Assembly (NCBI GenBank): GCA_026397515.1
Contig: JAPLUU010000008.1
Coordinates: 1 to 48,769, forward strand
Direction: 5' to 3'
Origin: a candidate division SR1 bacterium
GTDB lineage: Bacteria; Patescibacteriota; Gracilibacteria; Absconditabacterales; Absconditicoccaceae
DNA: 48,769 nucleotides
Shown: positions 22,737-34,924 of the stretch, one piece after another
Position numbering within the stretch: the stretch's first letter is position 1
Layout of the letters: each line of letters opens with the position of its first letter
Program-made: the position numbers and the translations under genes
Notes under the pieces: generated by a model
Databases searched by the model: none
Seen by the model: the letters and a program-made list of their open reading frames with translations, nothing else
What the model was told of the DNA's origin: nothing

Positions 22737-23624
22737 TTACGACTGACGGGCAGCTTGCCAGACATCGTCTTTGGTGTCCCTGATGTAAAGACGGACATAT
22801 TTACCTGATCTCACATAGTTGGTGGCGCTTGCCAACAATCGTTGTGCTTTTTTAAGCTCAGGAAATTTCTCCCCATTAAGTTCCATACCCAAGAACTTGG
22901 ATAAATTCGGACCAGCCTTCACTTTGATTTTTACCACCAAAAGCTCTTTGAGCAGATCTGAAAGCATCGCGATAGTATCATCTTCTGGCGTTACATCCTT
23001 AGTAGGATTTATCCTTGTAAAGAAAGCATCAATTTCCTGTTTTGCTTCCTCTACTTTTGCAACATCCATAATATTGATGCTGTTGGTCATGATTACAACC
23101 TTTTTGGTAGAAGTTGAATTTTCAATCATCTTCTGGGTCGCTTTTTCATGGAGATGTGGGAATACATCAGCGGCAAGATATTTATCCATATTTTCTAATG
23201 AGGCAACAACGCCGTCATTGAGGATAAAAACTTTATCTACTATACCATCAGTCTGTTCAACCTGGATCTTCTGTGCATGAAGCATTTCAGAAAGAAGTTC
23301 TTCCTGTGTACGGATTTCTTCTTCTTTTTGATGCATTGCCTCACGAGCAGCATCCCTGCGGAGAGTAAGTTCTTCAGATTTTTGATCCCAACCATCAATG
23401 GTTTCCCAAAGTTTTTTTACGGTAAGATTGGTTACATTACCCTTGATAGCATCAGTAGTCAAACTTTTCTTTCGACGGTCATTTAATGCCTTGGTTGCGG
23501 ACATATATTTTTTATATCCCAAAGTCCACAACCTGCGTGATTCAATTTCCTCCTTCTTGAGCGGGGTAAGTTCATTTTGAATTCTTTTAAGAATTCTTTC
23601 ATTTGTGATAATTTCTTCTTTCAT
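22737..23624 (-). CDS. TGA-free helical protein of foreign appearance, unknown
   Basis: The 295-residue frame (ATG to TAA) has no TGA codon; all nine or so glycines are GGN, unlike neighbouring genes. Its GC content is visibly higher. The protein is soluble: long charged helices over the first 130 residues (coiled-coil likely, LRRDAAREAMHQKEEEIRTQEELL), then VFILNDGVVASLENMDKYLAADVFPHLHE, a mixed region, and a basic C-terminus. It has AAGGAT before the ATG, a rare Shine-Dalgarno-like site here, plus its own promoter and terminator. No family was recognised. Its leader matches that of the gene at 27986. Confidence 0.7.
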   Translation of the reverse strand: MKEEIITNERILKRIQNELTPLKKEEIESRRLWTLGYKKYMSATKALNDRRKKSLTTDAIKGNVTNLTVKKLWETIDGWDQKSEELTLRRDAAREAMHQKEEEIRTQEELLSEMLHAQKIQVEQTDGIVDKVFILNDGVVASLENMDKYLAADVFPHLHEKATQKMIENSTSTKKVVIMTNSINIMDVAKVEEAKQEIDAFFTRINPTKDVTPEDDTIAMLSDLLKELLVVKIKVKAGPNLSKFLGMELNGEKFPELKKAQRLLASATNYVRSGKYVRLYIRDTKDDVWQAARQS

Positions 23625-27985: not shown

Positions 27986-28600
27986 ATGAAAATATTAAAT
28001 GTATTATCAGGACTTTCATCTGGTCCGTTATGGCAGACAATAATAGTTATTGGTGGCATATCACTCATTGCTGGAGTAATAGTATTCATTGGATATCTGA
28101 ATTTCCGCATATTCAAAAAACATGATTGCGCATACTGTACCAGCGACGAAGCATTTGGAAAATCAGACGAAGGCAAGTATATCTGCCATACATGTGATCC
28201 TAATACCCTGTCAAAAAAGCAGAACACCATAGTAAAAGTGGTATTCCGAGTATTGTACCCTGTGCTTATCGTACTACTTGTGTATGTATTCACTTCGGAT
28301 CCTTACGCCGGCAAAGAGAAAGTAACCGTGTACTTTAAATCCTACAAGGCTACGGGTCATTACGATACCTGGAGCGGATGTGAAAGCGTAGAAATAGGAA
28401 TCAACATGGCATTGGCAAAAAATCCGACGGCAAAAATTGAATTCATCTGCCCAATCGCCAAAAGCGAAACGGACGAACGAATCATCGGGTACATCATAGG
28501 GATGACAAAAGATCCTGATGGAAAAAAGGTAGACAACAGCGGTAATGTTGTCTTTAAAGAAGATAGCAAAACCGCCCAAGAAATGGGCATAAGTGATTAA
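27986..28600 (+). CDS. TGA-free membrane protein with a zinc-ribbon-like loop
   Basis: The 204-residue frame has about 17 glycines, all GGN, and no TGA; its GC content is higher than that of its neighbours. Two membrane helices (about residues 15-37 and 87-105) flank a cytoplasmic-looking loop with CAYC and CHTC pairs (a four-Cys zinc ribbon, HDCAYCTSDEAFGKSDEGKYICHTC). The C-terminal 95 residues contain two more Cys and a mixed fold (GHYDTWSGCESVEIGINMALAKNP). It has its own promoter and terminator, i.e. it is a stand-alone cassette. No family was recognised; foreign origin is inferred from codon use. Confidence 0.75.
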   Translation: MKILNVLSGLSSGPLWQTIIVIGGISLIAGVIVFIGYLNFRIFKKHDCAYCTSDEAFGKSDEGKYICHTCDPNTLSKKQNTIVKVVFRVLYPVLIVLLVYVFTSDPYAGKEKVTVYFKSYKATGHYDTWSGCESVEIGINMALAKNPTAKIEFICPIAKSETDERIIGYIIGMTKDPDGKKVDNSGNVVFKEDSKTAQEMGISD

Positions 28601-32511: not shown

Positions 32512-33087
32512 ATGGAAATAAAACGAAAAGCGTTAATAGACCAGTTTATATCGATAAACTCACATACAAATCTCTCAGCTATCAGAGACCCAGAGGGCAT
32601 TCAAGTCAAACATATCCAAGATTCGCTAGAAATTAATAAAGTCCTAGTACTCAAGCCAGGTTTAACCTTATGTGACGTAGGTACAGGATGATGATTTCCT
32701 CTTTTACCTATAGCAATAAATAATCCTGAACTCCAATGTACAGGAATAGATTCCACAAGAAAAAAAATCGATGCTATCAACGAAATGATTACTAATCTCA
32801 AGATACCAAATGTCAAAGCACTACGAACCAGAGCAGAAGACCATAAAGAACAATATGATTACGTAACCGCAAGAGCTGTTGGCTATATAGACAAATTACT
32901 TCCCCAAGTCCATCATCTCATCAAAAAATGAGGCCGTCTTATCTTATACAAACAATTCACTCCTGAAGAGAGTCAGGATATTGGTCATTTTGGAAAGAGA
33001 TATCGTTTTGTTGTACAAAAAAAACACAAATACCAGCTTTTTGAAGGAGATATCCAAAGGATCATCTATGTTTTAAAAAAAATATAA
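32512..33087 (+). CDS. rsmG: 16S rRNA guanine-N7 methyltransferase RsmG (GidB)
   Basis: The 191-residue protein (typical about 205-240) methylates G527 of 16S rRNA using SAM. It has the hallmark KHIQDSLEI then LCDVGTGGGFPLLPIAINNPELQCTGIDS, the SAM-binding loop in which two glycines are adjacent TGA codons (32689-32694). VTARAVGYIDKLLP, the equivalent of the family's VxSRAxAxL motif, and GGRLILYKQ follow. The N-terminus is shorter than usual. No Shine-Dalgarno site precedes ATG 32512. Confidence 0.92.
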
Positions 33088-33114: not shown

Positions 33115-33176
33115 TTGCTTTATAAAAAAAAAAGGATATATTCATGTTCAAAAAATAAAAAATAAAAAATAAATAT
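33115..33176 (+). promoter_or_regulatory. Promoter and A-rich leader of the gene at 33177
   Basis: TTGCTT (33115-33120) and TATATT (33137-33142) are 16 bases apart, followed by a 34-base leader with three direct repeats of AAAAAATA-type sequence before the ATG. The layout resembles that of the other two TGA-free genes. Confidence 0.55.
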
Positions 33177-33704
33177 ATGCATACAGAAAAAAAATTTTGG
33201 AAAGAAATAAGTAATTTCACCGTTTCCAAAGTTATTATAACTGTATGGAATGGAATTGCTTTTTGCTATCATCTTTGGTTTATTGGATTTAATCCATGGA
33301 CTAGCCTAATCTTGCAAGGAACAGCATTCATAATGGAATATCTTCTCTGTGAATGGTATGAAAAAATGCTTATACAGAGCAACAACAAAATCAACAAAGA
33401 AACAAAGCTTACTGCATGGCCTTTACGAATTCTAGAAAGAGGAATAAAAAAATATGTAACATTTACAGGTATTTTTATACTGGTATATGTAACTACATAT
33501 TATCTCAGATTAGAGTTTTTTTACTTCATTGATTTTGGCGTAGATCAGCACAAATTAGAGCAAAGCATAATATATATGTTATGTTTTACACCAATAGCAG
33601 CACCTATAATGGCAATACTTGTCATTGAAAGGAAGAAAAAGAAAAAACGCATGGAAGAAAGAACAGAATGGTTGAAAAAAATCAACTTTGGTCCATTTGC
33701 ATGA
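33177..33704 (+). CDS. Polytopic membrane protein, TGA-free, apparently ending in TGA
   Basis: The 175-residue protein has four hydrophobic segments (about residues 16-35, 40-56, 92-112 and 133-151) and basic loops (ERKKKKKRMEERTEW), with no recognisable family. None of its seven glycines is TGA. The frame reaches TGA at 33702-33704, only nine bases before a strong terminator hairpin. With code 25 that TGA would be Gly and the frame would stay open past the terminator to TAA near 34070. Either the true end is TGA, as in a gene imported from a standard-code organism, or the message has no stop. End placed at TGA for that reason. Confidence 0.6.
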   Translation: MHTEKKFWKEISNFTVSKVIITVWNGIAFCYHLWFIGFNPWTSLILQGTAFIMEYLLCEWYEKMLIQSNNKINKETKLTAWPLRILERGIKKYVTFTGIFILVYVTTYYLRLEFFYFIDFGVDQHKLEQSIIYMLCFTPIAAPIMAILVIERKKKKKRMEERTEWLKKINFGPFA

Positions 33705-33713
33705 AAAATACTG

Positions 33714-33742
33714 ATGTCCCCTTTATTAGGGGACATTTTTTC
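33714..33742 (+). terminator. Strong terminator right after the TGA of the 33177 gene
   Basis: ATGTCCCCT (33714-33722) and AGGGGACAT (33728-33736) form a perfect 9-pair stem with a 5-base loop and a T run. It begins nine bases after TGA 33702-33704. Confidence 0.9.
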
Positions 33743-33958
33743 ATTTAAGACGCAGAAAAAAAATTGAGATATCGTAGATTATCAAATAAATAATTTCATT
33801 ACGACGACAGATGTATGACAAGACTCTCACTATATTCGAAGCAATCAATTCATTCGAACCGAAGTAAGTCACACGAATGTGTGCGAACAAGGTGAGATAA
33901 ACATTTCATACATAGTAAACTGACAGTTTGTTGGGTTTACATCTGGCTTGATCTTTTT

Positions 33959-34003: not shown

Positions 34004-34100
34004 TTTTTTTAAAAAAAATATTTGTATATATCTTATAATCTTTTTTTTACTCCAAAAACAATAACGTCAAGAAAAATTAGATACCAAAGAGAAAAAACAT

Positions 34101-34158: not shown

Positions 34159-34183
34159 ATTTTTCCTTCGAAAACATACATTA

Positions 34184-34924
34184 TTCTAGAAATAACAACG
34201 TCGACATAATTCAGATACCGAGAAGGAAAAATAGAATCTGTGGAATATTATGAGCTAAACTATTTTCTTTATGGAGTTCAGGAATTAAATCTGAACAAGC
34301 GATATAGATGAATGTTCCAGCAGCAAAAGGTATTAATACAGCCACCATATTGTTCGTATAGCGATACAACAAGAAAGCGATAATTACACCAACTACAGCG
34401 GTCAATGCAGTGACGAAGTTGAGCAATAATGCTTTTCTTCTACTAAATCATCCATGAACAAGTACACCAAAATCTCAGATCTCCTGAGGTATTTCATGTA
34501 GAACTACTGCAAGCGTAGTCGCAATTCCGACAGGGATACTCACTAAATAACTCGCACCGATAATCAATCCATCAATCAAATTATGTACACTATCTCAGAT
34601 TAAATTCATGAGAGCAACCGGATGGGTATGATGTGCAGTAACGGGCATATGACAATGATTTCGACGAATAACTTTTTCTGTCACCAGTCCAAAAACTATT
34701 CATCCAAGTATTCGTAATGAAACAGTAATATTTCGTCATGAACCATGAATAATTCCTGGCAATAAATGAAAAAATACATCTCCAAGCAATGCTCCCGCAG
34801 AGAAACTAACAAGTCGTAAAACTATCCTTTTAAGTAAAGACAGACGAAGTCATAAAGTCACAATACCTATCAAAGAGATGATACTTACTATAAGTACACT
34901 TATCAATGCATACAAAAACGCCAT
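34184..34924 (-). CDS. ZIP-family metal (zinc/iron) transporter
   Basis: The 246-residue membrane protein has the ZIP metal path in order: SAGALLGDVFFHLLPG (helix II), HNLIDGLIIGASY (helix IV, HNxxDG) and VVLHEIPQEIGDFGVLVHGG (helix V, HExPxExGD). A His-rich loop (RRNHCHMPVTAHHTHP) lies between helices III and IV. Such proteins import Zn2+ or other divalent metals. The C-terminus is helical with a TGA-encoded Gly before the TAG stop at 34184-34186. The start is ATG 34922-34924. Upstream on the same strand is an unknown gene 29 bases away. Confidence 0.92.

Follow-up and report, generated by a model that had tools for sequence, protein, structure and literature searches.

Genes free of glycine TGA suggest a second translational dialect, possibly written for a standard-code partner cell, in a code-25 bacterium

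Several described systems share single features with the locus analysed here. Agrobacterium T-DNA is bacterial-borne, but its genes have the expression signals of another cell, and it is there that they act. In Escherichia coli, arfA is expressed from a non-stop mRNA that ends through an internal terminator. Bacteroidota initiate translation without Shine-Dalgarno (SD) sequences; in leaders of Flavobacterium johnsoniae, A is overrepresented from −14 to −11, and initiation is promoted by A at positions −3, −6, −12, and −13 (PMC6847099). The code-11-compatible phages known from Gracilibacteria and Absconditabacteria live in cells that read TGA as glycine, yet have no TGA in frame, and they back TGA with a nearby TAA or TAG (PMC10746230). 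The window studied here, a stretch of 48,769 nt, is contig C19 of a genome of 1.21 Mb in 23 contigs (G000) and resembles the arfA case at one gene, since in code 25 a terminator would end its message ahead of any stop.

Between two syntenic native genes (Table 1), this gene starts with ATG at 33177-33179 and continues for 175 codons without TGA, TAA, or TAG. A sequence-only reading had pointed to its TGA at 33702-33704, to a 9-pair terminator nine bases downstream and to the lack of internal TGA, all of which we confirmed (stem 33714-33736, followed by a T run; computed energy −16.3 kcal/mol). Read in code 25, the frame continues through this and three more TGA codons to a TAA at 34062-34064, yielding 295 aa; such a distal TAA had been anticipated, albeit slightly farther downstream, at about 34070. 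As no TAA or TAG occurs in frame up to the end of the T run (~33741), the predicted non-stop message under code 25 stands as well. The gene departs from the ordinary code-25 profile both in the TGA share of its glycine codons and in the absence of TAA or TAG before the transcript end. Its −35 box matches at four of six positions only, which makes the promoter evidence weaker than for the other genes described below. AlphaFold2 modeled the product as entirely helical (mean pLDDT 77), and searches against Pfam, PHROGs, and known folds returned no significant match and no recognised family or fold.

Table 1. Coordinates of features in the window and of related loci elsewhere
Feature	Position	Strand	Basis
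Promoter TTGCTT - 16 nt - TATATT	33115..33142	+	Layout and spacer as in native promoters
A-rich leader, 34 nt, no Shine-Dalgarno	33143..33176	+	Class leader profile
CDS, 175 aa, predicted helical membrane protein, ends in TGA	33177..33704	+	ORF reading; ORFs in the same interval of 6 other genomes; AlphaFold2
Stop TGA of the window gene	33702..33704	+	First in-frame TGA, 0-9 nt from hairpin, in 6/7 genomes
Intrinsic terminator, 9-pair hairpin and T run	33714..33741	+	Sequence; strong hairpin also at sister loci
rsmG-like native gene, 3 TGA glycines, upstream syntenic anchor	32512..33087	+	Synteny
ZIP-like transporter, native, 7 TGA glycines, downstream syntenic anchor	34181..34924	-	Synteny
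Second class gene in window, 204 aa, 17 GGN, 0 TGA, TAA stop, terminator	27986..28600	+	
Third class gene in window, 295 aa, 9 GGN, 0 TGA, TAA stop, terminator	22737..23624	-	
Small-unit arrays near prfA (L103-L107)	G004 C15, G007 C20, G002 C49, G008 C2, G000 C11		
Short release-factor-like proteins	G001:C9:20033, G002:C1:24559, G004:C20:57263, G006:C70:9500, G007:C78:3376		
Three TGA-ended, Shine-Dalgarno-bearing genes including dapD	G013 C1 110402-112467 (L136:10402-12467, L171)		
pyrE-pyrF-like pair, no TGA, A-rich leader	G033 C1 162593-164253 (L193-L194)	-	

The assumption that TGA means glycine in this genome was borne out. TGA accounts for 33% of 6,353 glycine codons in 175 long ORFs of G000 and for 26-33% genome-wide across the genus. 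The only PCRF protein of G000 is RF1 by its PAT motif, and no RF2 (prfB) scored over the cut-off in 49 genomes of the family. A tRNA with UCA anticodon and tmRNA, which the sequence-only reading had also proposed to look for, are both present; the tmRNA (L002:1501-1855) encodes an unusual tag, AKTLNRAFALVPSYSLAA. Short proteins of ~140-196 codons in five genomes (Table 1) match the release-factor model in its catalytic part only and are possibly ArfB-like rescue factors. The 16S rRNA 3′ ends, read directly, are off consensus, with ...GACCACCATTCTA in G000 and ...GACCACCTCTCTA in the complete genome G013 of another genus; in place of the CCUCC anti-SD, G013 has CCUCU and the window genus (G000, G008) CCACC, in line with native genes having almost no SD motifs. 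A pattern search for the 16S anti-SD gave chance matches only.

The interval between rsmG and the ZIP gene contains a membrane-protein ORF of 164-219 codons in seven of the nine genomes of the genus and is empty in the remaining two. Conservation among these ORFs is poor, with identities to the window protein of 15-33%, and they form at least two sub-groups; position and layout suggest a common descent that the sequences themselves do not prove. The sub-groups (G000, G001, G005, and G003 vs G004, G006, and G002) are dissimilar, and the flanking genes are mostly 70-85% identical. All 62 internal glycine codons of the seven ORFs are GGN and none is TGA. In six of them the first in-frame TGA lies at the C-terminal end, 0-9 nt ahead of a strong hairpin, and in the seventh a TAA is located in the hairpin loop. 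Four (G000, G002, G003, and G005) are strictly non-stop under code 25; the ORFs of G001, G004, and G006 have a TAA or TAG within the hairpin. A recent import from a standard-code organism, one of three interpretations put forward in the sequence-only reading, should be isolated, and either less diverged than its neighbours or missing from that position in sister species, and the interval did not have this appearance: six other genomes have such an ORF, and the copies of G004 and G006 differ at 0.58 of 4-fold sites, compared with 0.59 for the native rsmG.

Nor is the locus a one-off accident. In a sample comprising about one-third of G000 and parts of eight relatives (nine genomes in total), we counted TGA-free ORFs of at least 90 codons that end in TGA followed by a strong terminator, with no in-frame TAA or TAG. 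There were 11, and a pseudo-stop control, in which each of the 61 other codons took the place of TGA, gave 0.67 such ORFs on average and 3 at most. Besides the window gene, the TGA-ended members in G000 include proteins of 98, 122, 135, 190, and 384 aa; all six G000 members lack an in-frame TAA or TAG ahead of the terminator end, and some TGA-ended members in G004, G006, and G008 have one before or inside the hairpin. In G008, the 98-aa protein has a 92-aa homologue that likewise ends in TGA before a terminator. The 190-aa protein ends in ...IAIAW-TGA in G000 and in ...IAIAW-TAA in G004 and G007, and TGA and TAA are thus seen to interchange at a homologous stop codon. Stop-to-hairpin distances span a similar range for TGA and TAA. 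Since TGA occupies the same place relative to the terminator as TAA in sister genes, and since orthologues of another class gene have TAA at the corresponding codon, TGA appears to be the actual gene end.

These genes belong to a larger class that can be recognised without reference to codons. We scanned G000, G008, and G004 for ORFs of at least 100 codons by promoter (TTGAC[AT]-16-TAT) and leader only, with an A-rich threshold that had been set after seeing G000 and was later applied to G008 and G004. Internal TGA was absent from 45 of 48 ORFs with A-rich leaders, compared with 5 of 46 ORFs with other leaders behind the same promoter (Fisher p = 2.7e-17); TGA-ended genes were counted as TGA-free, and without those seven the share (38/48) is still far above 5/46. 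The TGA stop with terminator was found in these seven ORFs with A-rich leaders and in none with other leaders. Genus-wide, 72 class genes contain 586 GGN and no TGA glycine codons, and they stop at TAA (47), TGA (14), or TAG (10), with one truncated by a contig end. Their leaders have A at −13 to −11 (79-86%), A at −6 (88%), and T at −1 (71%), and native leaders are T-rich; part of the A enrichment stems from the way the class was picked, the positional peaks do not. The window gene is a member of this genome-wide class, which is distinguished by its leader and has other members with export signals of Bacteroidota type; the class lay beyond the view of the sequence-only reading.

We rejected the idea that a foreign promoter marks the class. 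Its genes are found behind the usual promoter of the genome, TTGAC[AT], 16 nt, TAT..., which is common to native genes (32 of 387 at the spacer peak of 16, vs 3 in shuffles), and the Bacteroidota box TAnnTTTG is not enriched at class promoters. Leaderless native genes were not supported either, and the palindrome TTGAGACYCAA was too rare for a common 3′ tag. Arrays of single-gene units, each with promoter and terminator, occupy a conserved place ~10 kb from prfA (Table 1) and contain fast-evolving TGA-free paralogues.

The class is old, as its orthologues have diverged as far as native genes. Between the orthologues of the third class gene of the window (295 aa) in G000, G006, and G007, all TGA-free, 49-58% of 4-fold sites differ, compared with about 58-60% for the native rsmG in the same genome pairs. 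Many synonymous glycine codon changes separate these class orthologues, none of them to TGA, and in the rsmG pairs TGA is found on one side only at 1-4 of ~10 shared glycines. Selection has apparently held TGA out of the class since these species split, and the families compared have evidently been inherited along with the species.

The leaders also give an indication of whose ribosomes these genes may address. The class peaks at −13 to −11 and −6 match, as judged by position, the Bacteroidota initiation region described above. Matches over the cut-off to the T9SS type A sorting domain (TIGR04183) occur in most family genomes, among them G000 and seven of the eight other genomes in its genus; the window protein did not reach that cut-off, and other TGA-free genes of G000 and its relatives did. 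To our knowledge, the type IX system is restricted to Bacteroidota and close kin, and the sorting domain is useful only there; we know of no type IX secretion system in Patescibacteria and took the machinery to be missing in these genomes. All 908 glycine codons of the 16 complete T9SS-tagged genes are GGN and none is TGA; these genes begin with signal-peptide-like sequences, mostly follow A-rich leaders, and are located among native genes that do contain TGA. One T9SS-tail ORF with apparently three TGA codons (G017 C1 724500-731000, L250) is the exception among the long ORFs inspected, and its start or frame may be wrong. T9SS-tagged orthologues differ at.54-.66 of 4-fold sites, near saturation, and at.23-.37 of second positions, and the sorting domain itself is 49-59% identical among them; the tagged members evidently are under purifying selection. 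A literature search found no report of T9SS cargo in code-25 Patescibacteria, which is no proof of novelty.

Two other genera provide contrasting cases. In G013, TGA encodes 71% of glycines, and the called genes (n = 295) have almost no SD motif. Its TGA-free genes, however, have GGAGG (SD) leaders, and its A-rich leaders belong to native TGA-rich genes; the T9SS sorting domain TIGR04183 had no match there. Among the SD-bearing genes, those of 153 and 103 aa and dapD end in TGA, and there are further TGA-free ones. With 57% GC in a neighbourhood of 28% GC, an SD leader and a TGA stop, dapD served as an import test; it scored over the cut-off in G013 only, among 146 relatives searched, so import does occur in this lineage. 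SD leaders were found in G013 only, and we rejected them as a universal mark of the class. In G033, of a third genus, 12 of 27 zero-TGA genes have a leader with at least 55% A, vs 2 of 137 native genes, and among the products of TGA-free genes are PyrE/PyrF-like enzymes, a GlsB-like acyltransferase and a protein tagged for T9SS. The secretion tag thus changes along with the leader type from lineage to lineage, as expected if both mirror a host.

All of this evidence was read from sequences of uncultured, partly sampled genomes. At that level it demonstrates a second dialect, namely a gene class behind native-type promoters that is apparently addressed to standard-code ribosomes with a different mode of initiation. 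The explanation that we favour, with a probability of about two-thirds, is that the class genes are translated in a standard-code partner cell, in which TGA would be an ordinary stop. For the window genus this partner would most likely be a Bacteroidota, given the A-rich leaders, the use of TGA never as glycine but as a stop beside TAA and TAG, and the T9SS sorting domains on related TGA-free genes. The epibiont's own RNA polymerase probably transcribes the class genes, which are located between code-25 genes with the same promoter type, and the ribosomes of the partner would translate the messages; there, the TGA at 33702 would be a normal RF2 stop just ahead of the terminator. Translated at home, the window message would be non-stop and end in the tmRNA tag. 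As any protein produced in the epibiont itself would be read in code 25, the agent transferred should be nucleic acid, RNA or DNA, whose delivery is inferred; native-type promoters and the missing TAnnTTTG enrichment favour RNA. A candidate conduit, and no more than that, is the type IV secretion system found widely among Patescibacteria, mostly without relaxase (PMC12102498). Most class proteins belong to no recognised family. We tentatively suggest, at somewhat less than even odds, that dozens of chromosomal genes could act as 'mRNA effectors', with epibiont promoters and the host's translation dialect of Bacteroidota or SD leaders, standard code, TGA stops and T9SS tags, delivered as RNA, translated in the host and altering its surface and metabolism.

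Many of the same features could have been brought in by a steady flux of genes, taken up repeatedly from standard-code hosts (a Bacteroidota for the window genus, an SD-using bacterium for G013), placed behind native promoters and lost again before TGA glycines accrue, with TGA stops as tolerated or harmful leftovers. Vampirococcus gained 126 genes by transfer (PMC8080830), dapD in G013 looks just like such an import, and the signal peptides and T9SS tails resemble those of Bacteroidota genes. We nevertheless consider this origin of the class unlikely, as the window interval holds such an ORF in seven genomes, the orthologues have diverged (.49-.66 at 4-fold sites) like native genes and yet have no TGA, the promoters are of native type, and the coding statistics match the genome in which the genes reside (LLR 55.7 for the 384-aa gene). 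We have stronger doubts about cargo of standard-code-compatible phages or mobile elements shuttling between code-11 and code-25 hosts, which we regard as very improbable. Such phages of these bacteria do exist, and cassettes with their own promoter and terminator are reminiscent of phage morons, but the phages back TGA with TAA or TAG, which the six TGA-ended G000 members lack before the terminator end, and the chromosomal position is conserved. Furthermore, we found no relatives of the window protein in viral contigs and phages and none of the 295-aa class protein in plasmids.

A solution within the cell itself is improbable, too. Without available tRNA-Gly(UCA), internal UGA would stall the ribosome and be avoided, and the stall at a terminal UGA would be resolved by tmRNA or an ArfB-like factor. 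The tmRNA and the short release-factor-like proteins fit this account, as do some native, probably highly expressed genes that are also free of TGA. It provides no RF2 for release at UGA, however, and leaves unexplained the separate leaders and TGA stops, the SD leaders of G013 with its 16S tail off consensus, and the T9SS sorting domains under selection. Ribosome rescue alone, as considered in the sequence-only reading, would not account for the absence of internal TGA from 72 class genes. That TGA is the real gene end is supported, but residual termination by the cell's own machinery is contradicted by the lack of RF2; taken together, the three interpretations of that reading are partly supported.

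If the class is indeed translated in a standard-code partner, two genetic codes coexist in a single bacterial genome, each meant for a different ribosome, and epibionts of the candidate phyla radiation use nucleic acid instead of protein to program their hosts. Missing TGA would then mark any gene meant for a standard-code cell and permit an annotation-free listing of host-directed genes, with leader type and secretion tag providing a guess at the host of uncultured epibionts. It would also explain TGA-ended genes that were missed or misannotated in code-25 genomes. Even on a conservative reading, an old gene class selected to obey a code foreign to its own cell needs explanation.

The comparison with known systems suggests parallels as well as differences. 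Like T-DNA, the class has the translation signals and code of another cell, with an SD variant in G013; donor and recipient of the proposed transfer would both be bacteria here, and promoters of donor type are combined with leaders, code, and export tags of recipient type. The code-11-compatible phages share the avoidance of TGA, whereas the class is chromosomal, syntenic and inherited with the species, and its TGA stops in G000 have no TAA or TAG backup. Signal peptides and the sorting domain link the 16 TGA-free T9SS-tagged genes to Bacteroidota T9SS type A proteins (TIGR04183/PF18962), but those genes are encoded by Patescibacteria. In contrast to arfA, finally, the class avoids internal TGA and has either TGA or TAA at one and the same codon; TGA therefore behaves as a stop.
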